From the NCBI GenBank assembly GCA_902786365.1, contig CADACD010000009.1, positions 1-64,000 of the forward strand: 64,000 nt of DNA, in the 5' to 3' direction. The position numbers and the translations under genes are program-made. This document shows positions 38,530 through 58,727 of the stretch, one piece after another. The DNA comes from an uncultured Lachnospiraceae bacterium. GTDB lineage: Bacteria > Bacillota > Clostridia > Lachnospirales > Lachnospiraceae. How positions within the stretch are numbered: position 1 is the stretch's first letter; each line of letters begins with the position of its first letter. The notes under the pieces were generated by a model. That model saw only the letters and a list, made by a program, of their open reading frames with translations. It was not told the DNA's origin and did no database searches.

Positions 38530-38557
38530 TTGACAAAAAAATGCATGGTGCTATAAT
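38530..38557 (+). promoter_or_regulatory. Promoter of the leader-tRNA-nifB operon
   Basis: TTGACA (38530-38535) and TATAAT (38552-38557), both perfect consensus hexamers, with a 16-base spacer. It is one of the strongest vegetative promoters in the window and is placed to transcribe the leader peptide, the tRNA-Cys and the nifB-like operon. Confidence 0.85.
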
Positions 38558-38578
38558 AATCATAAATTAAGTATAGTA

Positions 38579-38599
38579 TTCCTAACGACTTTATAGGAA
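38579..38599. promoter_or_regulatory. Palindromic operator candidate
   Basis: TTCCTA and TAGGAA flank a 9-base spacer just downstream of the expected transcription start. The symmetric form and position suggest a repressor site. Rrf2-family cysteine regulators of Firmicutes (CymR) bind A/T-rich palindromes containing TTCC/GGAA; the Rrf2 gene at 56642 is a candidate partner. This link is inference. Confidence 0.45.
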
Positions 38600-38622
38600 A
38601 TAAACAGAAAGGAGAACATAAT

Positions 38623-38712
38623 ATGAAAAGTAAGATGATGACAGAAATTGTAAAAAAAGTGATGTGTTGTTGTCAGACTGTATGCATGAATATGGTTTGT
38701 TTTTTCATATGA
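38623..38712 (+). CDS. Cysteine-rich leader peptide (29 residues)
   Basis: A 30-codon frame behind a strong ribosome site (AAAGGAG, 9 bases before ATG). The peptide starts MKSKMMTEIVKKVM and then carries three consecutive Cys codons (TGT TGT TGT, 38665-38673), then further Cys at two positions, with many Met. Five Cys in 29 residues is extreme in this genome. A terminator hairpin follows at 38751. This is the layout of a transcription attenuator in which ribosomes stall on Cys codons when charged tRNA-Cys is scarce, letting polymerase read into the tRNA-Cys gene and the nifB-like operon. The mechanism is inferred. Confidence 0.75.
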   Translation: MKSKMMTEIVKKVMCCCQTVCMNMVCFFI

Positions 38713-38750
38713 TTTGTGTTCCTAAATGAATATAGAATATATATTTTCAG

Positions 38751-38782
38751 GCAGGTTCATGGTGATGTGAAGCCTGCTTTTT
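38751..38782 (+). terminator. Attenuator terminator downstream of the Cys leader peptide
   Basis: GCAGG-TTCA pairs with TGAAGCCTGC (one bulged C) around an 8-base loop, followed by TTTTT. It lies 39 bases after the leader-peptide stop. An A/T-rich hairpin (TGAATATA with TATATTTTCA, around 38728-38749) directly precedes it and might act as the competing antiterminator. Confidence 0.7.
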
Positions 38783-38829
38783 GTTTGGCAGAAAATGATT
38801 GATAAATATTCGTAAAAGATAAGTAATCT

Positions 38830-38899
38830 GGTGCTGTAGCCGTTGGAATGGCATAAGTTTGCAAAACTGAAGTTGGTGGTTCGAATCCGCCCAGTACCA
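38830..38899 (+). tRNA. tRNA-Cys (anticodon GCA)
   Basis: A 70-base cloverleaf: acceptor GGTGCTG/CAGTACC (38830-38836 with 38892-38898, one G-U), D stem of 3 bp GCC/GGC with GG in the loop, anticodon stem 38854-38858/38866-38870 with one A-G mismatch, loop TTGCAAA giving GCA, 4-base variable loop, T stem GGTGG/CCGCC (one G-U) and loop TTCGAAT. CCA is not encoded. The discriminator base is A, whereas bacterial tRNA-Cys normally has U73. It is transcribed in the same direction as, and inside the leader of, the nifB-like operon. Confidence 0.85.
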
Positions 38900-39006
38900 C
38901 TTCTAAAGCATTTGTGCTTTGGATTGAATGTTGAATTACATTTTGTTTCATATGCCGCCTAAGCGAAGCGGAGGGGGCAATGTATTTTATAAGAGGAGGC
39001 ATGCTG

Positions 39007-39879
39007 ATGAGTAATACATATAAAGATTTACAAAATTCCCATCCTTGCTTTGGAGGACATAAAAATAATGTCGGAAGAATTCATCTGCCGGTAAGTCCTG
39101 GTTGTAATATTGCCTGTCGTTTTTGTGACAGGGTAATCAATGATACAGAGCAGAGACCGGGAGTTACATCAAAAGTGATTACTCCTAAAGAAAGTATTGA
39201 AGTCCTTGAAAAAGCACTAAAGATATGTCCGGAGATTACAGTGGCAGGAATTGCGGGACCGGGAGATACACTTGCAACCGATTATGCCTTAGAAACATTT
39301 CGGCTTGTGAAAGAGAAATATCCACATCTGATAAAGTGTATGAGTACCAACGGACTTTTACTTTATGAAAAGGCGGACGAAGTAATAGAAGTGGGAATTG
39401 ATTCGCTGACAGTTACAGTTAATGCGATAGATCCTGAGATTGAAGCACAGCTTAATAAATTCATCATTTACCATGGAAAAAGATATGATGGAGTCGAGGG
39501 TGCAAAGATACTAATTGAAAATCAATTAAAGGGAATCAAAAAAGTAGCTGCAGCAGGTATCACAATTAAAGTCAATACAGTGCTTGTTCCGGAAATTAAT
39601 GGTGATCATATAGAGACGATTGCCAAGACAGTGAGTGAGGCAGGTGCAAGTATTTATAACATTATACCACTGATTCCGCAAGCAGAATTATCGGATAAAC
39701 GGTCACCTGTGTGTGCAGAGATTGATGGTGCGAGAAGTAAGGCAGGAAAATACATAGATGTTTTCAGACATTGTCAGCATTGTAGAGCAGATGCAGTCGG
39801 GGTACCGGGCAAGTCAGAATATGGAGACCAGATTTATCAGAGAAGATTACAGGTAAAGGAGACATTTTCTCATGGCTGA
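39007..39879 (+). CDS. nifB: NifB-like radical SAM cofactor-synthesis protein
   Basis: A 290-residue NifB core without the NifX-like extension. It has HPCF at 12-15, the radical SAM motif C33-x3-C37-x2-C40 in SPGCNIACRFCDR, the NifB-specific QRPGVTS segment, AGIAGPGD and the C-terminal C256-x2-C259 in RHCQHCRAD, which holds precursor clusters. NifB makes the carbide-containing [8Fe-9S-C] precursor of nitrogenase cofactors, so its presence implies a true NifB-derived cofactor. The AGGAGG at 38994-38999 is 7 bases before the ATG at 39007; upstream ATGs (38980, 39001) are badly spaced. It overlaps the next gene by 8 bases. Confidence 0.93.
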   Translation: MSNTYKDLQNSHPCFGGHKNNVGRIHLPVSPGCNIACRFCDRVINDTEQRPGVTSKVITPKESIEVLEKALKICPEITVAGIAGPGDTLATDYALETFRLVKEKYPHLIKCMSTNGLLLYEKADEVIEVGIDSLTVTVNAIDPEIEAQLNKFIIYHGKRYDGVEGAKILIENQLKGIKKVAAAGITIKVNTVLVPEINGDHIETIAKTVSEAGASIYNIIPLIPQAELSDKRSPVCAEIDGARSKAGKYIDVFRHCQHCRADAVGVPGKSEYGDQIYQRRLQVKETFSHG

Positions 39880-40246
39880 TAATAATCAATATAAAATTGC
39901 AGTAGCATCATCCGACGGGATAGTAGTCAACAGCCATTTTGGAAGAGCAGAGGATTTTTTAATCTACCGGCTAGAGATTGATAATGAAAATGACTGCTGG
40001 TTAAAAGAATTTATTGAACTTCGAAAAGTAGCTCCAGTCTGTCAGGGTGGAAATCATGATGACAACCGGTTACAGGAAACGGCAAAACTGTTTTCGGACT
40101 GTAAATATGTTTTGGTAAGCAGAATAGGACAGGGAGCGGCATTTGCACTTGAAGGCAAAGGCATTACACCTATGGAGCTTCCGGGAATGATAGATGAATC
40201 AATAGAGAAGCTGATTGTATATGAAAAACTGCAGAGTTTGTTTTAG
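39872..40246 (+). CDS. NifX/NafY-type cofactor-binding protein
   Basis: A 124-residue member of the dinitrogenase iron-molybdenum cofactor-binding family. It opens with YKIAVASSDGIVVNSHFGRAEDFLIY, where the N-S-H-F-G-R-A segment is the family signature, and ends with a Rossmann-like half. Such proteins carry NifB-co or finished cofactor between NifB and the D/K proteins. It overlaps nifB by 8 bases, so the two are translated together. Confidence 0.88.
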   Translation: MADNNQYKIAVASSDGIVVNSHFGRAEDFLIYRLEIDNENDCWLKEFIELRKVAPVCQGGNHDDNRLQETAKLFSDCKYVLVSRIGQGAAFALEGKGITPMELPGMIDESIEKLIVYEKLQSLF

Positions 40247-40339
40247 TCAGCATGGAAAAATAAAAGGTCATGAATCATATAGCTTATAAATATATGATTT
40301 AATATAGAAATAAAATAGTTTGAAACTAATAGAGAATAA

Positions 40340-41203
<864 letters not shown>

Positions 41204-41223
41204 ATAGGGGTAAAGCGAACACT

Positions 41224-41267
41224 AAATCGGTAAAAAGTGAAGATGAAATCGGTACATAGTGAACATA
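41224..41267. repeat. Tandem 22-base direct repeat between nifH and cysK
   Basis: Two adjacent copies starting AAATCGGTA (41224 and 41246) match at 18 of 22 positions and share AAATCGGTA and AGTGAA. The upstream flank (AGCGAACACT) resembles the end of the unit, hinting at a partial third copy. Possibly a protein-binding repeat or a small duplication. Confidence 0.6.
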
Positions 41268-41330
41268 AAAGCAAGAACATAAAGAAAATAAGCATGAAAT
41301 AGAAAATATAGGAGAAAGGAAGAAAATATC

Positions 41331-42320
41331 ATGGCAAAAGTTTATGAATCAATTTCGCAACTTGTAGGAAAAACACCATTACTTGAGATTAAGAACTATG
41401 AAAAGGAGAACAATCTTGAGGCAAAGATATTAGTTAAACTTGAATACTTCAATCCAAACCAGAGCGTAAAGGACAGAATTGCACTTGCAATGGTAGAGGA
41501 TGCTGAGAAGAAAGGTTTGTTAAAACCAGGTTATACAATTGTTGAGACAACAAGTGGAAATACAGGTATTGGTCTTGCAGCAATCGCGGCAGCAAAGGGA
41601 TATAAATTCCGTGTGTACATACAGGATAATGTAAGCCAGGAACGTTTTCAGGTAATTAAGGCATTCGGTGGAGAAACAATCAAGTTTTCCGATGAGCCTG
41701 TTATCGCAAAGGCACTTGCAGAGTCAAATGGTGACTTTGTGGCAGCTATCAAAGCATTCCGTGAACAGGTACTTTCAAAAGAAGAGAATATATTCTTTGT
41801 TGATCAGGTGTCAAACCCTGCTAACCCTGGTATTCATGAAGCTACAACAGGTCCGGAAATCTGGGAAGATACAGATGGCGATGTAGACATTTTTGTTGCA
41901 AATGTAGGTACAGGTGGAACTGTTTCAGGTACAGGCAAATTCTTAAAATCAAAGAATCCTGACATTAAGGTAGTAGCAATTCAGCCGGGACCAAATTCAC
42001 TTCCAAGTGAAGAAAATCCTGAACCGGAAGAAATTACAGGCGTTCACCCGTTTGAAGGAGTTGATAAGGAGAGAGTACCGTCTACAATGGACTTAAGTAT
42101 TTATGACGAGAAGTTCGAAGTTGAGACTTATCAGGCATTTGAAGCAGCAAGAAAGGTAGCAAAGACAGATGGTATTTTGATAGGAACATCATCAGGAGCA
42201 GCAATCTACGCAGCTACAGAGCTTGCTAAGAGACCGGAAAACAAAGGCAAGACAATCGTGGCAGTATTACCTGACACAGGACTTCGTTATCTGTCAACTA
42301 ACCTGTTCAAAGAAGTATAA
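41331..42320 (+). CDS. cysK: Cysteine synthase (O-acetylserine sulfhydrylase)
   Basis: A 329-residue PLP enzyme joining sulfide to O-acetylserine to give cysteine. The PLP lysine is K47 in NPNQSVKDRI, the substrate loop TSGNTG is at 74-79 and the phosphate loop GTGGTVSGTG follows near 190. NPNQS replaces the usual NPxxS variants but keeps the lysine context. It is placed inside the nitrogenase-like operon between nifH and nifD, which suggests that sulfide, or a thiol accepted by the enzyme, is the product of the reductase. Confidence 0.94.
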   Translation: MAKVYESISQLVGKTPLLEIKNYEKENNLEAKILVKLEYFNPNQSVKDRIALAMVEDAEKKGLLKPGYTIVETTSGNTGIGLAAIAAAKGYKFRVYIQDNVSQERFQVIKAFGGETIKFSDEPVIAKALAESNGDFVAAIKAFREQVLSKEENIFFVDQVSNPANPGIHEATTGPEIWEDTDGDVDIFVANVGTGGTVSGTGKFLKSKNPDIKVVAIQPGPNSLPSEENPEPEEITGVHPFEGVDKERVPSTMDLSIYDEKFEVETYQAFEAARKVAKTDGILIGTSSGAAIYAATELAKRPENKGKTIVAVLPDTGLRYLSTNLFKEV

Positions 42321-42341
42321 AATAGCAAGAACTTGATTTAT

Positions 42342-42403
42342 TATCAGATTTAGTGTCTGCGTCGTAACAGTAAATCTGATATGTTGATAATTTGCGACGC
42401 AGA
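42342..42403 (+). promoter_or_regulatory. Two interlocking inverted repeats upstream of the nifD-like gene
   Basis: Element 1 (42342-42352, TATCAGATTTA) is the exact complement of element 3 (42371-42381). Element 2 (42356-42364, TCTGCGTCG) is the exact complement of element 4 (42395-42403). The order 1-2-3-4 means the 11-bp and 9-bp helices cross as a pseudoknot or exclude each other as alternative folds. Element 4 ends 3 bases before the ATGAGG that serves as ribosome site for the nifD-like start at 42417, so translation control is likely. There is no T-run, so it is not a simple terminator. Confidence 0.75.
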
Positions 42404-42416
42404 AATGAGGTTAATT

Positions 42417-43898
42417 ATGTCATTTAATTTGGAAAGCTCAAATGTGGCAACAAGAGAAAACAGAATCGGTTCCATTACAGGCTACATTGGAAGCTTAAGT
42501 GATTTGGCTAATCAGAGTAAATGTGGAACATTAAAGGGATGTTCAAGATGTTTTTCGCAATCAAGCTCCTGTCTTTCAAGCTGTGCATTAAACCAGCTTT
42601 CTGCAATTCGTGATGTTGCTATTATCCATCATGGACCTGCTGGATGTTCAGTGGCAGGTGCAAATGCATATTATCTTGATAAAGTAATGGCAAGAAAACG
42701 AGGAGTAACAACCAGTACAGTTTATGTTGGAACAGATATGAATGAAAATGATACAATATTTGGTTCAGCAGAAAGTCTTAGAAGAATTATCCTTGAGGTA
42801 AATAAAAGATATTCACCAAAGGCAATCTTTGTCAGCAGTTCATGTGCGACGGGTATTATCGGAGAGGATATTGACAGTATTGTGGATGATGTAAAAGAAG
42901 AGATTGATGTACCAATCGTGGCAGTTCACTGTGAAGGGTTCAAGTCAAGAATCTGGGCAACCGGTTTTGATATTTCTGACCATGCAGTTTTAAGTTCAAT
43001 TGTAAAACCTCCACAGCAGAAAAGAAATACCATTAATTTCAAAAATTTCTATGAGAGTGCAAGACCGGAAATTATTGAGATGTTTAAGAATTTTGATTTA
43101 GAGCCGATTTTCTTGTACTGTAATTCAACAGTGGAAGAATTAAGCCGTATTTCAGAGTCACTTGCAACAACTTGTATCTGTGGTACACTTGGTAATTATC
43201 TTGGAAATGGTCTTGAAGAAAAATATGGTGTTCCATATATCAGAACTATTAATCCTCTTGGTATCGCTGGATTTGAAGCATGGCTTCGTGAGATAGGAAG
43301 AGTGACGAAGCGTGAAGCAGCGGTTGAAAAATATATTGAGGAGCAGAGAGCAATCTATATTCCTCAGATAGAAGAAATCAAGAAAGAATTAAAGGGTCTC
43401 AAGGCAGTTCTTGGTATGGGACCGGGATATACATTCGAGGTTTCAAGAGTATTAAATGAACTTGGAATTGAAGTTGTATGGGCACTTGCATGGCATTATG
43501 ACAAGAAGTATGAGAATGGTGATGTACCACCGTCTATGCAGTACCTTCTTGAAAATGATGTTGATTTTGAGGCAAGTGTTGCCGACCAGCAGAATTATGA
43601 AGTAATGAATATTTTGAATAAATACCAGCCTGATTTATATTTGTCAAGACATCCTGGTTCGACTGTATGGGCAATTAAGAATGGTACACCTGCAGTCTAT
43701 GTTGCAGATGAATATATGATTTTTGGTTATAAGCACACATTGGAATTTGCACAGTCAGTTTTAGATAGTATCCATAACAGAAGTTTTGAAAAGAACTTAG
43801 CCAGACGTGTAAAACTTCCTTATACAGAATGGTGGTATAAACAAAATGTAGATGAATTCTTAGAGGAGGCAAAGACAAATGGCAAAGCTGTTGGATAA
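42417..43898 (+). CDS. NifD-like nitrogenase alpha subunit, first pair
   Basis: A 493-residue protein of the nitrogenase alpha-subunit family. The three P-cluster-type cysteines are in place: C56 (SSCALNQ), C77 (HHGPAGC) and C143 (SSCATGIIGED). The cofactor-ligand cysteine, equivalent to alpha-Cys275, is C255 in CICGTLGNYLGNGLEEKYG. In the segment equivalent to the catalytic Gln191/His195 the protein reads CEGFKSRIWATGFDI, giving W180 and F184 instead. The His442 ligand position reads YVADEY, without His. This points to a different substrate from N2. The GAGG site selects the ATG at 42417. It overlaps the K-like gene by 20 bases. Confidence 0.9.
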   Translation: MSFNLESSNVATRENRIGSITGYIGSLSDLANQSKCGTLKGCSRCFSQSSSCLSSCALNQLSAIRDVAIIHHGPAGCSVAGANAYYLDKVMARKRGVTTSTVYVGTDMNENDTIFGSAESLRRIILEVNKRYSPKAIFVSSSCATGIIGEDIDSIVDDVKEEIDVPIVAVHCEGFKSRIWATGFDISDHAVLSSIVKPPQQKRNTINFKNFYESARPEIIEMFKNFDLEPIFLYCNSTVEELSRISESLATTCICGTLGNYLGNGLEEKYGVPYIRTINPLGIAGFEAWLREIGRVTKREAAVEKYIEEQRAIYIPQIEEIKKELKGLKAVLGMGPGYTFEVSRVLNELGIEVVWALAWHYDKKYENGDVPPSMQYLLENDVDFEASVADQQNYEVMNILNKYQPDLYLSRHPGSTVWAIKNGTPAVYVADEYMIFGYKHTLEFAQSVLDSIHNRSFEKNLARRVKLPYTEWWYKQNVDEFLEEAKTNGKAVG

Positions 43899-45177
43899 AC
43901 AAAGATATAAATGTGCACTAGGTGCAATGCAGACGGTTCAGGCAATCACAAGGGCAATCCCTATTTTGCATTCAGGTCCGGGATGTGCACAGAAGCTTTC
44001 GGATTCTATCGGAAGTTCAGGATATTTTTCACCAAATATCTTCCCATGTACCAGTATCAATGAGAAGGATGTTGTATTTGGTGGGGTCAAAAAGTTAGAG
44101 ACAACAATTGAAAATTCGTTAAAAGTAATTGATGCAGATTTGTATGTAGTTCTTACAGGATGTATTCCTGAAATTGTTGGTGATGATACAGGGGAAGTAG
44201 TCTCTCATTTTGAGGACGCAAAAAAGCCTGTTATCTACGCATCAACAGCAGGATTTAAGGGAAACAATTATAAAGGACATGAGCAGGTTATCGATGCGAT
44301 AATCGAGCAGTATTTAGAAAAATCAGATGAAAAGGAAGAGGGACTTGTTAATATCTGGGCAGATGTTCCTTACCAGGATTTGTTCTGGCTTGGCAACATC
44401 AGAGAGTTAGAAAAACTCTTGGAAGAAATCGGATTAAAACCAAATACGATCTTCGGATATCAGAGAGGCATTGAAAATATTAAAAAGATTCCAAAGGCTC
44501 AGTTCAATCTTTTGGTGTCACCATGGGTGTCTGTGGGCAATATGAAGAAGATGGAGAGAAAACTTGGCATACCATATCTTCACTACCCGACACTTCCAAT
44601 CGGAGCATATGAGACAAGTAAGTTCCTTCGTGAGGTAGGTAAGTTTGCAGGTGTTGATGATATTACCATCCAAAAGGTAATTGACGAACATGAAAATTAT
44701 TATTATTATTTAATCGAGAGATATGCTGACATGTTCCTTGAGACACGTGTTATGGCAAAACAATTCTCAGTTGTTGCAGATGCACAGTATGCACTTGCTA
44801 TCACAAAATTCCTTGTCAATGATTTGGGTCTGGTTCCGGCAAAACAGTTTGTCACCGACGATACACCGAAACAGTTCCAGGAGAATATCCGCAAGGAGTT
44901 TGAAAATCTGAATTATGGATTGAAAGCAGAAGTAGCATTTGAGACAGACGGATATAAGATACATAATGAAATTAAAGAACATGATTATCATGGTTATCCA
45001 TTGATATTGGGAAGCTATTATGAGAAAGAATTGACAGAAGAGCTATTTGGACATTATCTGAATATCTCTTGGCCGGTTCAGGATAAAGTAGTACTTGATG
45101 ACTTCTATGTAGGTTATACAGGTGGTATCAGATTGATTGAAGATATCTATTCAGTAGCAGTTCAGAGATGGAATTAA
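43879..45177 (+). CDS. NifK-like nitrogenase beta subunit, first pair
   Basis: A 432-residue beta-subunit-like protein. P-cluster cysteines: C12 (YKCALGAM), C36 (HSGPGC) and C95 (LTGCIPEIVGDD). The N-terminus is short compared with Mo-nitrogenase NifK, as in V- and Fe-only enzymes and in nitrogenase-like proteins. The start overlaps the alpha gene by 20 bases with a GAGGAGG site inside it, so a 1:1 alpha2beta2 complex is expected. Confidence 0.9.
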   Translation: MAKLLDKQRYKCALGAMQTVQAITRAIPILHSGPGCAQKLSDSIGSSGYFSPNIFPCTSINEKDVVFGGVKKLETTIENSLKVIDADLYVVLTGCIPEIVGDDTGEVVSHFEDAKKPVIYASTAGFKGNNYKGHEQVIDAIIEQYLEKSDEKEEGLVNIWADVPYQDLFWLGNIRELEKLLEEIGLKPNTIFGYQRGIENIKKIPKAQFNLLVSPWVSVGNMKKMERKLGIPYLHYPTLPIGAYETSKFLREVGKFAGVDDITIQKVIDEHENYYYYLIERYADMFLETRVMAKQFSVVADAQYALAITKFLVNDLGLVPAKQFVTDDTPKQFQENIRKEFENLNYGLKAEVAFETDGYKIHNEIKEHDYHGYPLILGSYYEKELTEELFGHYLNISWPVQDKVVLDDFYVGYTGGIRLIEDIYSVAVQRWN

Positions 45178-45202
45178 TGAATATGCAGATAAAATGATGA
45201 AA

Positions 45203-45312
45203 GGATAAATGCAGGCTGCCCGCAGTTATGATGCATGGGCGACGTTGTGGTTTTTGAAACGCAATATACATGGATGCGGATGTGAAGTAAGAACACAATA
45301 TGCATGGGTATC
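45203..45312 (+). promoter_or_regulatory. Leader element A (shared with 58622-58724)
   Basis: The element opens with GGATAAATGC (45203-45212) and ends with GCATGGGTATC (45302-45312). GATA pairs with TATC and ATGC pairs with GCAT, with A opposite GGG as an internal loop. A small hairpin CTGCCCGCAG lies at 45216-45225. The same three parts, in the same order and spacing, occur before the LysR gene at 58728. The next start codon (45316) follows 3 bases later and has no other ribosome site, so the closing helix may gate translation. Confidence 0.5.
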
Positions 45313-45331
45313 AAAATGTCATACAAAATAG
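45209..45331 (+). CDS. Possible upstream open reading frame (40 residues)
   Basis: An ATG with a good ribosome site (AAAGGAT, 4 to 8 bases before) opens 40 codons that run through leader element A and end at TAG after the start of the next gene. The peptide begins MQAARSYDAWATLW and contains HGCGCE and a late Cys near the end. Overlap with the downstream start would couple translation. The alternative is that the conserved bases belong only to an RNA structure. Confidence 0.3.
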   Translation: MQAARSYDAWATLWFLKRNIHGCGCEVRTQYAWVSKCHTK

Positions 45332-45807
45332 CAATTGCGTCATCGGATGAAAAGATGATTGATGAGTCATTTGGCTCAGCAAAGAGATTTTTGATTTATG
45401 AAATTACAGAAGACGGATATCACAAAGCAGAAGAACGCATTGTAAACGAAGGGACTGGTAAACAGCAGTCAGAGATTAGTCAGTTGCAAAATGATAGTTC
45501 TAAGCAAGGATGCAGTCCGAATGCAGATTGTGGTACAGGTTCCGGCTGTGGAACAGGTGCACAGTCAGGGTGCGGTTCGGGAACCGGATGTGGCTCAAGT
45601 CATGCAGTATCTGAAAAAGTATTGCTTGTTTCAGATTGTCGCTGCATTGTCTGTAAGAAAATAGGATTCAATGTTCAAAAGCAGCTTGAAAGAAAGGCAA
45701 TCACTTCATTTGATGTGGATTGTAGCATTGAAGAAGCATTACAGAAAATATCATTTTATTTTAGTAAAATTGACAAACATCAGTCGCTTAGAGGCTTTAG
45801 AAATTAA
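45316..45807 (+). CDS. NifX-like protein with Cys/Gly-rich insert
   Basis: About 163 residues. The N-terminal half (YKIAIASSDEKMIDESFGSAKRFLIYE) and C-terminal half (VLLVSDCRCIVCKKIGFNVQKQL) match the dinitrogenase cofactor-binding family, but between them lies an insert of roughly 40 residues rich in Cys, Gly and Ser, with repeated GSGCGTG-type units and about six Cys. Together with the DCRCIVC segment it has a dozen or so cysteines, suggesting a cluster carrier or storage protein. In-frame ATGs lie at 45304 and 45316; 45316 matches the family start. Confidence 0.8.
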   Translation: MSYKIAIASSDEKMIDESFGSAKRFLIYEITEDGYHKAEERIVNEGTGKQQSEISQLQNDSSKQGCSPNADCGTGSGCGTGAQSGCGSGTGCGSSHAVSEKVLLVSDCRCIVCKKIGFNVQKQLERKAITSFDVDCSIEEALQKISFYFSKIDKHQSLRGFRN

Positions 45808-45883
45808 AAAATAATCTTTGCACATCAAGAAGCAATATATGAGATGAAGGCGAAAGATTTTTATGAATAGTTATATAGAACAG

Positions 45884-45916
45884 AAAACCGAGGAGAAGGT
45901 GCGCCTCGGTTTTTTG
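45884..45916 (+). terminator. Terminator after the NifX-like gene
   Basis: AAAACCGAGG (45884-45893) pairs perfectly with CCTCGGTTTT (45904-45913) and a T-run follows. It ends the first nitrogenase-like transcript before the LysR gene. Confidence 0.85.
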
Positions 45917-45941
45917 GGTAGTTAAATCAAGGAAAAATGTG

Positions 45942-45960
45942 TGAGCGTTGTTTATGCTCA
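45942..45960. promoter_or_regulatory. Short inverted repeat before LysR gene
   Basis: TGAGC and GCTCA flank a 9-base spacer, just before a TTGACA hexamer (45963-45968). Possible regulator site for the LysR gene; the -10 box is poor. Confidence 0.3.
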
Positions 45961-46020
45961 TTATTGACAAGGTTCACCAAAATAAATAACAGCTCATAAT
46001 GGCAGAAGGAGTAATGAAGA

Positions 46021-46923
46021 TTGACTATTTTACAGTTGAAGTATGTGATAACTGTCGATGAAGAATGTTCGATGAGAAAAGCAGCAACGAAACTTTACGT
46101 ATCTCAGCCGGGATTATCCAGTGCAATAAGAGAACTGGAAAAGGAGATAGGATTTCAGATATTCCAAAGAGTACATAATGGTGTGGTTGCGACAGCTGCG
46201 GGAGCAGCGTTTATCGCATATGCCCGCAGTGCAGTGGAGCAGTATGAAAAAATAGAGACAAAATACATTCATTCGAAAAATCATAAACCTACATTTTGTG
46301 TCTCAATGCAGCACTATTCATTTGCAGTGAATGCATTCATAGAAGTTGTCAAAGAGTTTGATATGGACAGTTACCAGTTTTCAATTCGTGAGACGCAGAC
46401 AAATGAAGTGATAAATGATTTAAAGACATTGAAAAGTGAAGTGGGTGTCATTGCTGTCAGTGATTTTAACAGGCAGATGTTAAAACGACTTTTTGCAGAC
46501 TATAGTCTTGAGTTTCATCCATTATTTTACTGTAACACATATGTTTATCTATGGAAGGAACATCCTTTGGCAGACAGAGAAGAATTGTCGTTAGAAGAAC
46601 TTCAGGATTATCCATGTATGGTATTTGACCAGGGTGATAACAATTCTTTTTATTTCAGAGAAGAGGCACTGCCGACATATGATTACAGGAAAACGATTAA
46701 CACCAATGAGAGAGCTACATCGATGGAGCTGTTAATCGGACTCAACGGATATGCAGTAGGTGTGGGACTCTTAGAAGACGGATTGGGAAGAGTTGATTAC
46801 AAGACGATTAAATTAAGAGAAGAGGATATTTTAACATTGGGATATCTAGTGAGAAAAGGGATGCCACTTAGTGAATTTGGAGAGAGATTTGTGAGTAAAT
46901 TGGAAAAATTCAAAAAGATATGA
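46021..46923 (+). CDS. LysR-family regulator, first copy
   Basis: A 300-residue LysR protein. The N-terminal helix-turn-helix covers about 1-60 (MTILQLKYVITVDEECSMRKAATKLYVSQPGLSSAIRELEKEIG, here split) and the rest is the periplasmic-binding-like effector domain (KPTFCVSMQHYSFAVNAFIEV onward). It starts with TTG behind AAGGAG. It is closely similar to the LysR protein at 58728 along its entire length. Placed between the two D/K pairs, it probably activates the locus in response to a sulfur metabolite such as O-acetylserine; the effector is inferred from CysB/CmbR-type relatives. Confidence 0.92.
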   Translation: MTILQLKYVITVDEECSMRKAATKLYVSQPGLSSAIRELEKEIGFQIFQRVHNGVVATAAGAAFIAYARSAVEQYEKIETKYIHSKNHKPTFCVSMQHYSFAVNAFIEVVKEFDMDSYQFSIRETQTNEVINDLKTLKSEVGVIAVSDFNRQMLKRLFADYSLEFHPLFYCNTYVYLWKEHPLADREELSLEELQDYPCMVFDQGDNNSFYFREEALPTYDYRKTINTNERATSMELLIGLNGYAVGVGLLEDGLGRVDYKTIKLREEDILTLGYLVRKGMPLSEFGERFVSKLEKFKKI

Positions 46924-46979
46924 TAGAAGATGAATCAAAATGCAAGTGAAAATTTAAAATGTAGGAAAGGTGGATGATT

Positions 46980-48422
46980 ATGGCAGAAGTAATATATTCA
47001 GGTGTAAGAGAAAGCCGGCCGGGAAGAGTCAATGATTTGGGAACAACCGGTAGACAGGTGGAGCAGGATTTTAAAAAGGGGTGTCTAAAAAGGGCAGACA
47101 GAAGCTTTGCGCAAGGACTTCAGTGTCAGCAGATTAACAGTATGGCGGCATTGATGTCACTGGAGGATTCTGTATTTGTCTCACATTCGCCGCAGGGATG
47201 TGTGGGATGTTCGATTATGGCAGTTGATATGTATCGTGTCGGTCAGGCTCACAGAGGAATTAAAAATATCAAAAATCCAAGAATTATTGTGACAAATATT
47301 GATCAGAAGAGCGTTGTGTTCGGTGGAGAGGAAAAGCTTCGTGAATCAGTAAAACTTGCTGTGGAGAGGTACCATCCAAAATTGATTTTTGTGTATGCTT
47401 CATGTGCTTCAGGAATTATAGGAGATGACATCGATGCGATTACGGCAGATTTGCAAAAGGAATTTGACAGTGTGATTGTGCCAATACATTGTGAAGGATT
47501 TAAATCAAAAATATGTGCGTCAGGTTTTGATGCTGCTTTTATTGCGATTAATAAGTATATTTTGAAGAAGGAAAAAAGGGAGAAAGAAAAAGGACTTGTG
47601 AATCTGTTTGCACCGACAACAGTCAGTTATGCAGATCAGCTTGAGATGGAGAGAATGCTTAAGGCAATCGACATCAAGGTAAATTATATCCCCTTTTACA
47701 GTTCTCTTGAAAAGATAAAAAGAATACCGGCGGCAGAGGCTTCTACATCTATCTGTAAGGTATTTGCAGATGAATTTATGAAAACTTTGTGGGAGGATTA
47801 TGAGATTCCATATTCACATACAGTTATGCCAATCGGAATCAGAAATACAGATAAGTGGTTTAGAGGAATTGCAAAAGTTCTCGGAAAAGAAGATGAAGTG
47901 GAAGAGATTATTCAAAAGGAGCATGAGAGAATAGAACCGCTTGTAAAAAAAATCAGAAGCAAATTGCAAGGAAAAAGAGTCTTTATCTGTGGTGGTACAG
48001 GTCGTTCATTTGCGGCAGCAGCATTGATTGATGATTTTGGAATGGAGCTTGTAGGGTTAGAGACACCGACTTATGATGAGGATGCTCAGGTAGATATTGA
48101 ATATCTTAACAATATTCACAAGGATTATGTGGTGGATATTGCGAATATGCAGCCATTTGAACAGGTCAATCTTGTGAATAAGTTAAAACCGGATGCGTTT
48201 ATCGGAGTTCCGGAGTGGGCAGCAAAACTGGGTATACCAACCACACATGTTCTTGACGGAAAGCGTCCGACAATGGGATATGACGGACTGTTATATCTTG
48301 GAAATAAAATTGCAGAGCAGCTTCAAAATCCGGGATTCAATAAAAAATTGGCACAGCATGTGAAACTTCCGTATAAGGATAGCTGGTATGATGAGGATGC
48401 GTTTAAGTATATCGAGAAGTAA
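46980..48422 (+). CDS. NifD/NifE-like alpha subunit, second pair
   Basis: A 480-residue alpha-type protein. Cysteines for a P-cluster-type site: C49 (GLQCQQIN), C74 (HSPQGC) and C142 (YASCASGIIGDD). The cofactor cysteine is probably C259 in SICKVFADEFMKTLWEDYE. The catalytic Gln191/His195 segment reads CEGFKSKICASGFDA, giving C and F. All expected cluster ligands except His are kept, so it may be a second catalytic unit or a NifE-like scaffold on which the NifB product matures. The AGGAAAGG site fits the ATG at 46980 better than that at 46974. Confidence 0.87.
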   Translation: MAEVIYSGVRESRPGRVNDLGTTGRQVEQDFKKGCLKRADRSFAQGLQCQQINSMAALMSLEDSVFVSHSPQGCVGCSIMAVDMYRVGQAHRGIKNIKNPRIIVTNIDQKSVVFGGEEKLRESVKLAVERYHPKLIFVYASCASGIIGDDIDAITADLQKEFDSVIVPIHCEGFKSKICASGFDAAFIAINKYILKKEKREKEKGLVNLFAPTTVSYADQLEMERMLKAIDIKVNYIPFYSSLEKIKRIPAAEASTSICKVFADEFMKTLWEDYEIPYSHTVMPIGIRNTDKWFRGIAKVLGKEDEVEEIIQKEHERIEPLVKKIRSKLQGKRVFICGGTGRSFAAAALIDDFGMELVGLETPTYDEDAQVDIEYLNNIHKDYVVDIANMQPFEQVNLVNKLKPDAFIGVPEWAAKLGIPTTHVLDGKRPTMGYDGLLYLGNKIAEQLQNPGFNKKLAQHVKLPYKDSWYDEDAFKYIEK

Positions 48423-48450
48423 AAGTTTATGATAAAAGGAGGAAAATGAG

Positions 48451-49740
48451 ATGTCACAGATATTAGAAAATCCAAGAGGAGGCTGTGTCCTTGCAGGAAT
48501 CAATTCTGTTCTTGGTGCGATTGACAGAGTCTGTCCGGTATTTCATTCGGGACCGGGATGCTGTATGCAGACTTCTGCCGCAGAACAGGGACAGTCAGGA
48601 CATAAAAATTCATGTTTTGTGAGCAGTGTATCACTGCCTTCAAGCAATATGTTAGAGAGAGAAGTTGTATTTGGTGGAATAAAAAAATTACGAACAACCA
48701 TACAGGGTGCAATTGATATCATAGATGCCAGTGCCTATTTTGTTTTGACGGGATGTACGGCAGGTATCATCGGTGATGATATAGAAAGCGTCACAGAAGA
48801 GTTTAGAAATAAAGGTGAAGAAGTCTATGCGATAGACACACCGGGATTTGCAGGGGACAGCAATCTCGGATATGAAGTAGTGTGGAATACAATGATTGAC
48901 AAGGTGATAGAGCAAAACGTGGAAAAAGATGACAAGCTTGTTAATATTTTTGGAATTGTTCCATACCATGATCCGTTTTGGAGTGGGACACTAGAAGAAA
49001 TTGACAGAATATTATCATTACTTGGACTAAAGGTTAATACATTTTTTACTAAACATCAGGGAATTGACGATATAAAGAAATGTTCGGGTGCAGCTTTAAA
49101 TATCATTGTCAATCCATGGCTGTTTAAGGGACCAGCAAAAAAGTTTGAAGAAAAGTTTGGTGTGCCGAGCTTAAGGATTCCGGGACTTTTCATCGGTGCG
49201 ACAGATACAACTGAATTTGTCAGAGCTGTTGCAAAAGAGTTGAATCTTGATGGTGAACTGGTGGAAAAAGTGATAGCTGCAGAAGAAGATTATGTCTACA
49301 ATTATCTTGCACAGGCAATTGGTGTAGTCAGTTTTAAGAGATTTGCCATCGTTTCTGATGCGAATAATGCAGTGGGACTGACAAGATATCTGGCAAATGA
49401 TTTCAGTTTTACACCTGTTTTAGTCGTGATTTCCGAGCCATTATTCAGGCAGGAAGACAAAGATAGAATCGTAGAAAGGATAACCGATTTGGAATATGCC
49501 ACACCGCCAAAGATTGTATTTGCCTCTGACCAGTATGAGATAAATCAGGCAATCTTGAATGAAGAAGAGGAGATAACACTTCTCATTGGAAGTAGCAATG
49601 ACAGGGAAGTGGCTCTTGAAAAGGATATTCAGTTTATCTTAGCCTCCTTCCCAATGAGTGAGAGACTTATCTTTAACCGCACATATGCAGGCTACAGGGG
49701 CGGACTGACATTTACGGAAGATTTGTATGATAATCTGTAA
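48451..49740 (+). CDS. NifK/NifN-like beta subunit, second pair
   Basis: A 429-residue beta-type partner of the preceding protein. It has C12 (RGGCVLAG), C37 with a neighbouring C38 (HSGPGCC) and C102 (LTGCTAGIIGDD), the full P-cluster-type set. NifN scaffolds often lack part of this set, which slightly favours a catalytic role, but the question is open. AAAGGAGG ribosome site; 28 bases after the alpha gene. The transporter genes follow. Confidence 0.87.
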   Translation: MSQILENPRGGCVLAGINSVLGAIDRVCPVFHSGPGCCMQTSAAEQGQSGHKNSCFVSSVSLPSSNMLEREVVFGGIKKLRTTIQGAIDIIDASAYFVLTGCTAGIIGDDIESVTEEFRNKGEEVYAIDTPGFAGDSNLGYEVVWNTMIDKVIEQNVEKDDKLVNIFGIVPYHDPFWSGTLEEIDRILSLLGLKVNTFFTKHQGIDDIKKCSGAALNIIVNPWLFKGPAKKFEEKFGVPSLRIPGLFIGATDTTEFVRAVAKELNLDGELVEKVIAAEEDYVYNYLAQAIGVVSFKRFAIVSDANNAVGLTRYLANDFSFTPVLVVISEPLFRQEDKDRIVERITDLEYATPPKIVFASDQYEINQAILNEEEEITLLIGSSNDREVALEKDIQFILASFPMSERLIFNRTYAGYRGGLTFTEDLYDNL

Positions 49741-49869
49741 GGCTTAATAAATGATAAATTTTTCTTATCGCTTCCTACAAAATCCCTTTAATTGTGCAAT
49801 TTGCTATTTGATGTTACGATAACCGCATCAAAAAAATAAAATAAATTAAAGAAAACAAGGAGGTACTGC

Positions 49870-50820
49870 ATGAAGAAACATATCATAAGACTGCTACCGA
49901 TTTTATCAATAGGTCTGGCAGTTTTACTGCATAATGAAATTCCCAATTCAACATTGCAGCCACAGGCAGAAAAACCATATTTTACATATTTCTTAGAGAT
50001 ACTGTTAGGACTATATATTATTTGTGTGGTAGTGTCATATGTAAGTAAAGCATTTGGAGAATGGCTTATTACGAAAGCACCATTGTGGGCCGGAGCTGTA
50101 TTGCTTCTTAATATTATTAATTTGGCATTTTCTAAATATGCAATGCTTCCGGTATTATATTTTCCATGTCTTGACAGAGTCTTTGAAGTATTTGTGACAG
50201 ACTATAAATTGTTATGGGAGTGTATACGTTCATCATTCAGGCTGCTGGCATGGGGATGGCTGTGGGGAGCAGGTTTAGGATTTATTACCGGTGTGGGAAT
50301 CGGATTTAATAAAAAATTAAGTTACTGGGTATCTCCGTTTACAAAAGTCATCGGACCGATACCACCGACATCATGGTCACCACTTGTTCTCTCACTGTTT
50401 ACAACATCTTATCATGCAGCAATATTTATGATTGCACTGGCTGTATGGTTCCCTATTACATTGATGACGAGCAGTGGTATACAAAATGTTCAGAATTCGT
50501 ATTTTGAGGCAGCTTCTACATTGGGAGCGAAAAAATATTATCGTATTGTACATGTCGGTATTCCGGCTGCAATGCCACATATATTTTTGGGAGTGTTTTA
50601 TGCGACATGTAGTTCTTTTGTGACACTTGTCACAGCAGAAATGCTTGGTTGTAAATCTGGAATTGGCTGGTATTTAAACTGGGTAAAAAGTATGATGTTA
50701 TATTCAAAGGTGTATGCAGGTCTTATTGTTCTGGCAGGTATATGTACATTTGTGCTCACTCTTATATTTAAAATGAAAGATAAAATTCTTGTATGGCAGA
50801 AAGGAATGATAAAGTGGTAG
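49870..50820 (+). CDS. ABC transporter permease, SsuC/TauC/NrtB type
   Basis: A 316-residue membrane permease with about seven helices. The cytoplasmic loop for the ATPase is recognisable as YFEAASTLGAKKYYRIVHVGIPAAMPHIF (EAA motif). It belongs to the family importing sulfonates, taurine, nitrate or cyanate. Downstream of the second D/K pair and upstream of its ATPase and binding protein, it probably imports the organosulfur substrate. AAGGAGG ribosome site. Confidence 0.88.
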   Translation: MKKHIIRLLPILSIGLAVLLHNEIPNSTLQPQAEKPYFTYFLEILLGLYIICVVVSYVSKAFGEWLITKAPLWAGAVLLLNIINLAFSKYAMLPVLYFPCLDRVFEVFVTDYKLLWECIRSSFRLLAWGWLWGAGLGFITGVGIGFNKKLSYWVSPFTKVIGPIPPTSWSPLVLSLFTTSYHAAIFMIALAVWFPITLMTSSGIQNVQNSYFEAASTLGAKKYYRIVHVGIPAAMPHIFLGVFYATCSSFVTLVTAEMLGCKSGIGWYLNWVKSMMLYSKVYAGLIVLAGICTFVLTLIFKMKDKILVWQKGMIKW

Positions 50821-51593
50821 GAGAAATTAAAATTGAACATGTAAAAAAGACATTTACAAATCCCGATGGTTCTGAAGTCATTGCGTTAAATGATGTGAAT
50901 CTTGATGTGGAGCCTGGCAGCTTTATATCCCTTATCGGACCATCAGGATGTGGTAAAACAACATTACTTAGAGCGATTGCAGGTCTTGACCTTGCAAGTG
51001 AGGGTGCTATTTATCTGGATGGAAATCAAGTGACAGAGCCGGGATATGAAAGAGGCTACGCATTTCAGCAGGCAACATTGTTTCAATGGCTTAATATCAA
51101 ACAAAATATTGCGTTTGGATTAAAAGCGAGAGGCGTATATAAAAAGGAAAAAGACGAGGTTGACAGATTTATCAAGCTTGTCGGATTAGAGGGATTTGAA
51201 AAATCATATCCACATCAGTTGTCCGGTGGGATGTGTCAGAGAGCATCTTTGGCGAGAGCTTTAGTAGGGCATCCAAAGGTACTTCTGCTTGATGAACCTT
51301 TAGGAGCACTTGACGCATTTACACGAATGAAGATGCAGGATGAGATATTGAATATCTGGAAAGAACACAAGATGACAATGGTTATGGTTACACATGATGT
51401 GGATGAAGCTGTCTATATGTCAGACAAAATTGTTGTAATGTCGGCAAGACCGGCAAAGGTTGAAAAGGTGATTGATATAGACCTTAGCAGACCGAGGCTT
51501 AGAGGTCAGGATGCATTTTTGAAATACAGGACCGAAATACTTGAGATTCTAGACTTTGCAGGACATGTGCAGGAGGCAGAATATTTTATATAA
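50814..51593 (+). CDS. ABC transporter ATPase, SsuB/TauB type
   Basis: About 259 residues. Walker A GPSGCGKTT, Q-loop FQQATLFQW, signature LSGGMCQRASLARAL, Walker B VLLLDEPLGALD and H-loop VTHDVDEAV are all present. The start may be the GTG at 50814 (AAAGGA site 8 bases before) or the ATG at 50793 without a site; both overlap the permease gene. It powers the SsuC-like permease. Confidence 0.92.
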   Translation: MVGEIKIEHVKKTFTNPDGSEVIALNDVNLDVEPGSFISLIGPSGCGKTTLLRAIAGLDLASEGAIYLDGNQVTEPGYERGYAFQQATLFQWLNIKQNIAFGLKARGVYKKEKDEVDRFIKLVGLEGFEKSYPHQLSGGMCQRASLARALVGHPKVLLLDEPLGALDAFTRMKMQDEILNIWKEHKMTMVMVTHDVDEAVYMSDKIVVMSARPAKVEKVIDIDLSRPRLRGQDAFLKYRTEILEILDFAGHVQEAEYFI

Positions 51594-51767
51594 CTTTTAC
51601 CAGTGCTGGATTGTTGAATGAAATGTAAATCGATGTAATCATGATTTAGATGACTTATAACAGATATTAGTGTAATTCTGATAAGGAGATTTTTGTATTA
51701 ATCAGATATTACTAAAATATATTTAATAACTCTTAAAATATTTTTTATAGAAAGGATGGATAGAAGT

Positions 51768-52961
51768 ATGAGGAAAGTTAATAGTTACGAAAAAAACAAG
51801 AATTCTAAAAACAAAACATTCAAGAAATTATTAAAAAAATCCGGCGCCATTTTGCTTATTGCGACAATGGTAACAGCTGCACTTTCAGGATGTGGCAATT
51901 CTGCAAGCAGCAGTGACAGTGGAAGTAGCAGTAATAGTAATAGTGGAAGTTCTGATGACAAAAAGAGTTCAGAAAATTACACTACTGTAAAGATTTTACT
52001 TGCAAAAGAGAGTCTGTGTTTAGGTGTAGTACACTTTGCCATTGAAAATGGATACTTTGATGAGGAATTTGAAAACATTGGACAGAAATATGAAATTGTT
52101 GAAGGCGAAGTAAGCCAGACTGCTGATTTGGTGGCAACAGGTCAGGTAAATGCTGCTTATGGTCTTACGGCAAGTTATATGGAGCCGATATCAAACGGTC
52201 TTAATATTGTATTTACAACAGGTCTTCACCGCGGATGTACAAAGTTCTATACAAAGCCAGATTCAGGAATTGATTCTGTTGCAGACTTAAAGGGAAAGAC
52301 AGTAGGTGTGCCATCTTTAAGTGACAGTTCTACTTTGAATATTAAGAGAAAAATTGCAGATGCAGGACTTGATGTTGTCAGTGCAAAACCGGATGTTGAA
52401 TTTGTGGCATATGCCATGACAGATTTACCGGCTGCACTTGAAAATGGAGCAATTGATGCTATCGGTCTTCATGATCCTGTTGCAACAACAGCAGAGGAAG
52501 AATTTGGATTTAAGAAGTTTTTAGATACAGGTGAAGATGAGAAGTTCGCACATGAATACTGCTGTCAGGCATTTGTGTCTGCAGATTTGATTGAAAAAAA
52601 TCCGGAAGGAGCAGCAGCATATACAAGAGCAATGCAGAAAGCAGCTGCTTATATTCAGGCATTACCATATGAAGCTGCACAGACACAGGTTGATAAAAAA
52701 TATATCACAGGAGACCCGGAACACAACGGTCTTGTCTTAGACAGCCTTAACTTTACACCATCTGTATCTTTAGGACAGCAGACTTTCAAGGATGCTTTCG
52801 CTGATTTACAGGAAATAGGAATATTATCTGATTCTTTAGATGCAGATGAATTCTTTCATAAAGCAACAGCAAACCTTGACGGAGTACCAGATGGATATGT
52901 ATACGATGCCGACACAAAAACATTTACAGAGACAACAGCAGAAGAGGCAAAGGCTGATTAG
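51768..52961 (+). CDS. ABC transporter substrate-binding lipoprotein (NMT1/SsuA-like)
   Basis: A lipoprotein of about 397 residues. The N-terminal Lys/Asn-rich part is followed by a hydrophobic helix and lipobox LSGC, then a Ser/Gly-rich linker and a type 2 periplasmic-binding fold: VKILLAKESLCLGVVHFAIENGYFDEEF (split), TGLHRGCTKFYTK and LKGKTVGVPS, as in SsuA/TauA/NrtA-type proteins. It completes the transporter. A start at 51756 is in frame but directly abuts its ribosome site, so 51768 is preferred. Ligand unknown; an organosulfur compound is inferred from context. Confidence 0.88.
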   Translation: MRKVNSYEKNKNSKNKTFKKLLKKSGAILLIATMVTAALSGCGNSASSSDSGSSSNSNSGSSDDKKSSENYTTVKILLAKESLCLGVVHFAIENGYFDEEFENIGQKYEIVEGEVSQTADLVATGQVNAAYGLTASYMEPISNGLNIVFTTGLHRGCTKFYTKPDSGIDSVADLKGKTVGVPSLSDSSTLNIKRKIADAGLDVVSAKPDVEFVAYAMTDLPAALENGAIDAIGLHDPVATTAEEEFGFKKFLDTGEDEKFAHEYCCQAFVSADLIEKNPEGAAAYTRAMQKAAAYIQALPYEAAQTQVDKKYITGDPEHNGLVLDSLNFTPSVSLGQQTFKDAFADLQEIGILSDSLDADEFFHKATANLDGVPDGYVYDADTKTFTETTAEEAKAD

Positions 52962-54147: not shown

Positions 54148-54165
54148 ACAGTAAAGAGGTAAATT

Positions 54166-54867
54166 ATGAAAAATATATTTTCATGGGATAGGTTGTGGAA
54201 GGTCATTCCACAACTTAATCCATATATAGGCGTATCTTTTCGCATAGTTCTCTCAGGACTTGTTTTTGGAACTTTGCTAGGGCTTGCTGTTGCAGTTCTT
54301 CGCATCAAAAAAATATTGATTATCAATCAGATATTATCTGTGTATATTTCATTTATGCGTGGAACATCTATGTTGGTTCAATTAATGATAATCTATTATG
54401 GACTTCCACTTCTTTTGAAAGGAACAATCGGTGTTGATATCAATTCATGGGATAAGCTGATGTTTGTCAAGGCGACATTTATTCTCAATGAAGGCGCATT
54501 CCTCGGAGAACTTTTTAGAGCAGCCATTGAATCAGTACCGGCAGAACAAAGAGAAGCAGGGTATTCAATCAATTTGACAGGACCACAGGTATTTTTCAGA
54601 ATTGTGCTTCCACAAGCAGTAAAGACAGCAATTCCGGCATATGGTGTGGATGTGATTGGAATGTTTCATAACACATCGATTGCATTTACTCTTGGAGTAA
54701 TAGATTTGGTGGGTCGTGCAAAAACAATAGGTATTGGCACCGGACATTTGATTGAAGCATATGTGTATGTGGCATTCATTTATATTATTGTAAGTATTAT
54801 TTTGAAATTATTGTTTTATCTGCTTGACAGGAAATTTACATTTGGTACAGAAGGGACGGTGCATTAG
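54166..54867 (+). CDS. Amino-acid ABC transporter permease 1
   Basis: A 233-residue HisM/GlnP-type permease. It has several membrane helices, MRGTSMLVQLMIIYYGLP and the EAA loop SVPAEQREAGYSINLTGPQVFFRIVLPQA (split). It forms a heterodimer with the next permease. AAAGAGG ribosome site; 18 bases after the binding-protein gene. Confidence 0.92.
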   Translation: MKNIFSWDRLWKVIPQLNPYIGVSFRIVLSGLVFGTLLGLAVAVLRIKKILIINQILSVYISFMRGTSMLVQLMIIYYGLPLLLKGTIGVDINSWDKLMFVKATFILNEGAFLGELFRAAIESVPAEQREAGYSINLTGPQVFFRIVLPQAVKTAIPAYGVDVIGMFHNTSIAFTLGVIDLVGRAKTIGIGTGHLIEAYVYVAFIYIIVSIILKLLFYLLDRKFTFGTEGTVH

Positions 54868-54870
54868 AGA

Positions 54871-55581: not shown

Positions 55582-55594
55582 AGGTAGTGTTAAA

Positions 55595-58724: not shown

Positions 58725-58727
58725 GAA

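Follow-up and report, generated by a model that had tools for sequence, protein, structure and literature searches.

The 64,000-nucleotide window analysed here (contig CADACD010000009.1 of assembly GCA_902786365.1, from an uncultured Lachnospiraceae bacterium) carries, from position 38530 to 52961, a run of sulfur-related genes with two nitrogenase-like pairs, named D1/K1 and D2/K2 below. The source genome of 3.1 Mb is 98% complete. Its four PF00148 proteins all lie inside this stretch, and a single PF00142 match is a true NifH (430 bits), the other four reaching at most 41 bits. An open reading frame (ORF) check and profile searches recovered all genes named in an earlier note on this DNA as open frames on the plus strand in one co-oriented stretch. 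The NifB of the locus lacks the NifX-like end, and the missing end is encoded by the next gene. Scores in the list are given with the curated cut-offs of the models.

38530..38557, + strand: promoter-like site TTGACA-16-TATAAT with TG before the -10 box (12 of 12 consensus matches)
38623..38712, + strand: leader peptide ORF of 29 amino acids (aa) with a Cys-Cys-Cys run, five cysteines in total and an AGGAG site upstream
38751..38786, + strand: terminator-like hairpin GCAGGTTCA/TGAAGCCTGC, then the T-run TTTTTGTTT (minimum-energy fold)
38830..38899, + strand: tRNA-Cys-like RNA with anticodon GCA, A73 and an A.G mismatch in the anticodon stem (ARAGORN and Rfam: tRNA-Cys)
38980..39879, + strand: NifB core without the NifX-like end (TIGR01290, 263 bits, cut-off 344, model positions 9-279 of 441)
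39872..40246, + strand: NifX-like cofactor-binding protein (PF02579; TIGR01290 positions 326-437)
40355..41203, + strand: NifH-type Fe protein, the sole one in the genome (TIGR01287, 463 bits, cut-off 394)
41331..42320, + strand: cysteine-synthase family protein (cysKM, 333 bits, below the cut-off of 344; nearest PDB proteins are cysteine synthases)
42381..43898, + strand: D1, catalytic alpha subunit of the methylthio-alkane reductase (MAR) type (PDB sequence matches, tree, residue alignment)
43879..45177, + strand: K1, MAR-type beta subunit (MarK, 393 bits; tree)
45304..45807, + strand: second NifX-like protein, with a Cys-rich insert (PF02579)
46021..46923, + strand: LysR-type regulator (profile match)
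46974..48422, + strand: D2, alpha subunit of a distinct nitrogenase-like subfamily (tree, residue alignment, PDB sequence matches)
48451..49740, + strand: K2, beta subunit partnering D2 (profile match, tree)
49870..50820, + strand: SsuC/TauC-like permease (below curated cut-offs)
50793..51593, + strand: SsuB/TauB-like ATPase (below curated cut-offs)
51756..52961, + strand: SsuA/NMT1-family binding lipoprotein (PF09084, 69 bits; TIGR01728, 73 bits, cut-off 163.5)

D1/K1 is by sequence a MAR-type pair inside the Mar supergroup. The nearest solved proteins are MarD of Rhodospirillum rubrum for D1 (313 bits, next 110; 34% identity over aligned columns) and MarK for K1 (next 92 bits; 43%). Maximum-likelihood trees were built from 90 D proteins (92 aligned rows less two partial ones) and 88 K proteins, including 9 of the best 80 loci from a D2 scan. 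MarD ends at residue 494 of 519 in the alignments, and MarK begins at residue 25. A group of 48 proteins (ultrafast bootstrap, UFBoot, 100) unites MarD, the Mar-like clades and the D1 family; within it the D1 proteins have their own clade, and Nif/NifE and Isr-like D proteins fall outside it. The K tree recovers the same families, with the Mar supergroup at 100 and K1 joined to L119 at 92. Pieces below 380 aa were left out of the trees, which is why the D1 of L099, broken across two frames, is absent.

The cofactor ligands of MAR are retained in D1. Across 24 D1 rows (23 distinct, the outlying clade member L119 kept apart), the MarD P-cluster cysteines, Cys270 and Arg428-His429 are present in every row, and the K1 P-cluster cysteines are kept in 26 of 26; the K1, D2 and K2 sets each count one region twice. 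D1 further shares His375 and, nearly always, Trp195 and Phe199 with the R. rubrum MarBHDK system (PDB 9fmg/9d9u), whose operon likewise includes a NifB-like and an Fe protein. MarD Cys73 is replaced by G, S or N (13, 8 and 3 rows) and His194 by I or V (21 and 3), while Gln74 is kept in 19 of 24; Mar-like relatives also vary at positions 74 and 194. MarBHDK differs in having MetY as the neighbour, where CysK is found here, and the locus adds a second pair, which has Cys at position 195 and lacks the Arg-His loop. The earlier view of a reductase related to but distinct from MAR thus holds in part: D2/K2 is truly distinct, whereas D1 belongs within the Mar supergroup and has its cofactor ligands.

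The second pair forms a separate subfamily. MarD is again the nearest solved protein to D2 (244 bits, next 116), with 30% identity over aligned columns between D2 and MarD as well as between D1 and D2, and 33% between K2 and MarK. In the D tree the 16 D2 rows form a family on a long stem outside the Mar supergroup (UFBoot 100), joined weakly (62) to ten D2-like proteins. K2 is recovered at 100 in the K tree, where Isr-like K proteins group with D2-like K proteins (87). All six P-cluster cysteines are present in D2/K2, three of them in K2 (16 of 16 rows for either subunit). All 16 D2 rows keep Cys270, have the Arg428-His429 loop deleted and carry Cys in place of Trp195. A histidine in the motif IPTTHVLD (16 of 16) aligns near, but not at, the position of the NifD cofactor ligand His442.

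Neither pair resembles nitrogenase or NifEN, and the Nif/NifE proteins lie apart from these families in the D tree. Identity with nitrogenase NifD was rejected, with D1 at 133 and D2 at 156 bits against 654 and with NifD Gln191 and His195 replaced by Trp and Phe in D1 and by Cys and Phe in D2. Membership in Isr was rejected as well. Isethionate reductase IsrBHDK of Rhodobacter capsulatus is also encoded in a sulfur locus that includes an SsuCAB-type importer. Its IsrD lacks two P-cluster cysteines and the cofactor cysteine, which D1 and D2 keep; D1 and D2 carry all four cysteines, where all 5 members of the Isr-like clade (L127-L131) have D, C, P and N. Genetic work shows that a nitrogenase-like operon together with SsuCAB can assimilate a sulfonate (PMC11423573).

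The distribution of the two pairs is uneven. The D2 scan confirmed 162 relatives; the best 80 of these match at 84-97% identity in the best segment. Their records belong to Lachnospiraceae, Treponema and Ruminococcus-type bacteria, and many have rumen or gut in the title. Cultured carriers include Butyrivibrio hungatei, Eubacterium ruminantium and Treponema saccharophilum. In a sample of 295 genomes of the order, with up to five candidates scored per genome, D1 orthologues (at least 56% identity) occur in 14 genomes and D2 (at least 70%) in four, each of which also has D1. Ten of the 14 D1 genomes have no D2, seven of them at least 90% complete. Among 25 D2 genomes picked from the best 80 loci, 22 carry D1 (at least 82%); NifH matches, too, are missing from the remaining three, which we infer to be incomplete assemblies. 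A single NifH match at 1e-40 is found in 16 of the 22 genomes with both pairs. In Butyrivibrio, D1/K1 and D2/K2 lie on different contigs with no nifH or nifB beside D2 (L074-L076), so that both pairs, if both need them, must share a single Fe protein and a single NifB. Plasmid pTS2 of Treponema saccharophilum (L085) carries MetY, CysK, nifB, nifX, nifH, K1-D1, an SsuABC-like importer and a Mar-like pair. An IS30 transposase is inserted there, and type I-C CRISPR genes are adjacent.

Sulfur genes are common around these pairs. Counting genes within 6 kb (SAT-like genes assigned by eye, metK not counted), the 43 D1 loci include CysK in 32, nifB in 30, nifH in 32, PatB in 9, MetB in 5 and MetY in none; 33 have at least one of CysK, MetB, PatB, SAT-like or MetY. 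Such a gene is found in 40 of the 84 D2 loci, with Rrf2 in 26, SsuA/C in 14, SAT-like genes and NifS in 11 each and NifU-type genes in 8; these counts are not independent, since the 84 include numerous contigs that are short or related to one another. The NifS and NifU examples near D2 pass curated cut-offs. A ThiF/rhodanese fusion gene (for example L006 8857-9975) also recurs in 11 of the 84 loci. MetY is present in 2 of 4 MarD and 7 of 18 Mar-like loci, and CysK in 5 of the Mar-like and 7 of 11 D2-like loci. Five Isr-like and four Nif loci showed no counted sulfur gene, metK being uncounted and the Nif stretches spanning only 8.5-9 kb. A link of Cys275-bearing nitrogenase-like relatives to OAH sulfhydrylase and cysteine synthase was reported in 2012 (Dos Santos 2012, PMC3464626). 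Linked sets of four genes were noted there as well; in the parts consulted the D2 subfamily, the shared Fe protein, the leader and the tRNA-like RNA are not described.

The head of the operon suggests how expression could be controlled. The -35 box of the consensus promoter coincides with the start of the studied stretch (38530); promoter-like sites number three in the stretch against a shuffle mean of 2.7, and this one alone is perfect. The leader peptide (MKSKMMTEIVKKVMCCCQTVCMNMVCFFI, 29 residues) is followed by the terminator-like hairpin ahead of the cysteine genes, which is the layout of a Cys attenuator as judged from minimum-energy folds. Promoter, leader peptide and tRNA-Cys-like RNA all go beyond the earlier reading. 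Small ORFs that combine a ribosome site with clustered Cys codons were sought in 160 loci; 19 turned up, of which 17 are distinct (L036 and L144 represent a single region, and so do L127 and L188). Sixteen of the 19 sit ahead of cysK, nifB or metK; six or seven are close kin (L038-L065), and the rest clearly differ. Looser rules add one leader each in L145, L187 and L192. In 242.6 kb of intergenic DNA such ORFs number 17, against 0 or 1 per dinucleotide shuffle (12 shuffles). The same scan for other residues, run without shuffle controls, returned none for His, Trp or Gln, 3 for Pro, 4 for Tyr, 5 for Asp, 8 for Asn and 9 for Thr. Cys-rich leaders followed by terminator-like hairpins precede cysK, nifB or metK operons in L036, L043, L193, L199, L185 and L188.

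The leader points to cysteine, not methionine or nitrogen, as the commodity that would be sensed. Poly-cysteine leaders are known to head cys operons of actinobacteria (PMC1262725), and uORFC-8-2 is a Cys-run leader before cysS (PMC8632094). The short ORF here resembles those of Mycobacterium and others and uORFC-8-2 of Rhodobacterales in placing a Cys run before cysteine genes, and a terminator accompanies uORFC-8-2, as a terminator-like hairpin does at this operon head. The known cases belong to other phyla and target genes, in contrast to the nitrogenase-like, cysK and metK operons here. A known riboswitch or T-box was rejected: above Rfam gathering scores only tRNA matched in the window and 14 other loci, and the one further hit of a permissive scan (38-64 kb) was a microRNA match at chance level (24.5 bits versus 84). 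SepRS-type, tRNA-dependent cysteine synthesis was likewise set aside, with no search for SepRS or SepCysS made.

The tRNA-Cys-like RNA recurs at related loci. A covariance model built from 11 copies scores 93-97 bits in 14 of 79 sources; among 37 others, two (L127, L129) reach 73-74 bits. Five genomes of the order sample exceed 70 bits, all other matches listed reaching at most 62, and each of the five copies lies no more than some 10 kb from a nitrogenase-like pair, be it of D1, D2-like or Isr-like type. A survey of 397 genomes of the family found 16 with a copy of at least 86 bits and one more at 59 bits (L202, left out of the count). Twelve of the 16 copies accompany nitrogenase-like genes, one of them (G584) beside nifB alone at a contig end; the other four adjoin metK, cysK or a MetB-like gene. 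The first named gene downstream of the RNA is nifB in 22 of 30 loci, metK in 4, cysK in 1 and a homologue of the window gene at 63309 in 1 (L186); 2 loci have none. Two of these metK genes were checked, and both score above the metK cut-off. In L208 one R1 match near 49 bits is a tRNA-Trp. The RNA stands directly before nifB or metK in the window and in L185, L187, L188 and L201, and the Isr-like operons L185, L187 and L188 share the order tRNA-like RNA, metK, nifH, isrD, isrK. A terminator T-run directly abuts the 5' end of the RNA in the three Isr-type operons, and a hairpin or T-run separates it from an upstream cysK in L022, L193, L194 and L197.

The sequence of the RNA is conserved in an unusual form. 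Among 25 distinct sequences, base 73 is A in 14 and G in 11 and never U, the identity base of tRNA-Cys, and the A.G mismatch in the anticodon stem is fixed. The anticodon is GCA in 23; two Isr-type copies (L187, L188) seem closed to a GGCA tetraloop. U73 is described as an identity element for cysteinyl-tRNA synthetase (CysRS; PMC8762117, PMC7609411), and it is present in 6 of 6 ordinary tRNA-Cys genes examined, three of them from copy-carrying genomes (G126, G226, G166). In 23 aligned copies eight pairs have changed on both sides and 99.5% of cells are paired, on a structure itself derived from such copies. The observed paired cells, two-sided cells and covariation score were reached by 0 of 500 shuffles, the number of two-sided pairs by 2 and the pair types by 11. 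selC* tRNA-Cys is likewise an extra tRNA-Cys-like RNA with a GCA anticodon in anaerobes; it has an 8/4 fold and U73, whereas the RNA here has 7/5 stems, as covariation indicates, and A or G at 73. We think that the RNA may act as a regulator related to CysRS or to processing, not as a decoding tRNA.

We consider with fair confidence that the locus is an assimilatory sulfur operon under control of cysteine supply with two nitrogenase-like reductases. It probably serves to cut sulfur from imported organic compounds. A shortage of Cys-tRNA would stall the ribosome at the leader Cys codons and let RNA polymerase pass the terminator. NifB would make the L-type [Fe8S9C] cluster, and one Fe protein would supply electrons to both pairs. 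D1/K1 may cut C-S bonds in the manner of MAR, while D2/K2 with its remodelled pocket may act on a different substrate. The sulfide or thiol released would be incorporated into cysteine. The identity of the product is suggested by CysK in the operon, and the substrate class by the SsuABC-like importer, which scores below curated cut-offs. The earlier note had placed the locus in sulfur and cysteine metabolism, and this is supported; the link to cysteine is stronger than from gene content alone because the Cys-codon leader and the terminator-like hairpin head the operon. More tentatively, we propose that D2/K2 is a new reductase of the nitrogenase superfamily that anchors its large cluster unlike MAR and shares an Fe protein with a MAR-type enzyme. 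The set would form a regulon responding to cysteine starvation, with a new, non-decoding kind of tRNA-Cys-like RNA ahead of nifB, metK and cysK as its hallmark.

Several observations weigh against this interpretation. CysK could use a thiol other than sulfide. AsrC passes the cut-off in 40 of the 295 order genomes and in one of the 14 D1 genomes, which fits sulfide as the product and proves nothing; sulfite may be the product instead, the source genome having one small NIR_SIR protein. The importer and cysteine-synthase genes score below curated cut-offs, SsuA has one weak match among PDB sequences, and L119 has Gly at position 429, without His429. A simple terminator scan of the stretch reported none. 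The leader scan for other residues, run without shuffle controls, also returned 13 Phe-rich and 11 Met-rich small ORFs. A Cys leader is present in 15 of 51 nifB loci (7 by the strict rule), and none was found in 36; operons starting further upstream perhaps account for part of these.

The locus might instead perform true MAR function, supplying methanethiol for methionine with CysK as a mere neighbour. The active-site ligands of D1 agree with this, as do the MetB and PatB genes near D1 in 5 and 9 of 43 loci. T. saccharophilum fits too, as MetY and CysK precede its nifB at a distance of about 9 kb from D1. The reading is nevertheless unlikely given that MetY is absent within 6 kb of D1 (0 of 43, against 2 of 4 for MarD and 7 of 18 for Mar-like loci), that the leader run codes for Cys and that MarD Cys73 and His194 are not kept. 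Nitrogen fixation by a group IV-A (Nfa) nitrogenase appears highly improbable. The cofactor cysteine is present, and 15N2 incorporation has been reported second-hand for the group IV-A organism Endomicrobium proavitum (PMC9147875). The replaced NifD Gln191 and His195, the sulfur-gene neighbourhood and the Cys leader all argue otherwise, and the genome has no further PF00148 protein and hence no NifEN, which also counts against nitrogen fixation.

D2/K2 could also be no enzyme and act instead, like NifEN, as a scaffold for maturation of the D1/K1 cofactor. Such a role was proposed for four linked nitrogenase-like genes (Dos Santos 2012, PMC3464626), NifE is the best NCBIfam model for D2 (183 bits), and no D2 genome without D1 was seen that had a NifH match. 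The NifE score is far under the cut-off of 505 bits, however, and the three P-cluster cysteines of K2 are intact (16 of 16). D1/K1 occurs alone in 10 of 14 genomes, seven at least 90% complete, and should therefore not need D2/K2. The marBHDK operon itself has no EN pair, although the nifEN status of the host is not given there (PMC12552129). A scaffold is thus quite unlikely. It is more probable that D2/K2 is a second reductase for which NifB and NifH are shared with D1/K1, since D1 occurs without D2 and D2 without D1 only where NifH is missing too; the earlier note had left both options standing. The tRNA-like RNA, finally, may be an ordinary or decaying tRNA-Cys gene placed there by chance, as its conserved cloverleaf and the GCA anticodon in 23 of 25 sequences would allow. 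This is improbable in view of the two-sided pairs and near-complete pairing, which argue against decay, the A or G at base 73 with a fixed mismatch (against U73 in ordinary genes) and the two copies seemingly without a seven-base anticodon loop. Moreover, 29 of 30 loci have nifB, metK, cysK or a MetB-like gene as the closest named gene on one flank.

Earlier work had separately established MAR chemistry, the link to cysteine synthase and leaders with Cys runs. D2/K2 as a defined subfamily, its putative reliance on the Fe protein of the D1 partner and the tRNA-Cys-like RNA were not found in the open-licence literature searched, and D2/K2 and the RNA look new. If the interpretation is right, gut anaerobes use a widespread nitrogenase-like route to organic sulfur under cysteine shortage, and Fe-S chemistry long deemed special to nitrogen fixation serves sulfur supply. 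D2/K2 would then offer a natural comparison for how protein pockets steer a cluster of the [Fe8S9C] type, and sulfur control would gain a tRNA mimic in the tRNA-like RNA. Such nifH genes in gut data should then not be taken as nitrogen fixation.

Further sulfur-related genes lie downstream of the importer.

53290..56350, + strand: amino-acid ABC importer, ATPase nearest L-cystine TcyN (318 bits, cut-off 406)
56642..57079, + strand: Rrf2 regulator, IscR/CymR-like (TIGR00738, above cut-off)
58653..59639, + strand: second LysR-type regulator (PF00126 and PF03466, above cut-off)
59813..60979, + strand: MetB-like cystathionine synthase/lyase (best matches below curated cut-offs)
61079..62272, + strand: PatB C-S lyase (TIGR04350, 469 bits, cut-off 340)
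62287..63189, + strand: MetF (TIGR00676, 330 bits, cut-off 294)

The trans-sulfuration genes and metF, which the earlier note has following the stretch, are present at 59813-63189 but are set apart from it by the amino-acid/cystine-type importer, Rrf2, GNAT-like and SGNH-like genes and the second LysR. The names GNAT-like, SGNH-like and SAT-like were assigned by eye, Pfam giving SAT-like proteins only a hexapeptide repeat. No nifV, nifS, nifU or modABC was noticed among the ORFs at 34-64 kb, an inspection without a dedicated search that did not cover the remainder of the window or the genome. The sole NIR_SIR protein of the source genome is a small siroheme-sulfite-reductase-like protein of 287 aa (L146 1240-2103). 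A glutamate-cysteine ligase gene lies within sulfur clusters in L190 (6420-7691, PF04262) and L194. The window gene at 63309-63917 has no Pfam match and recurs near D2 in 15 of 84 loci; L186 and L026 carry it.

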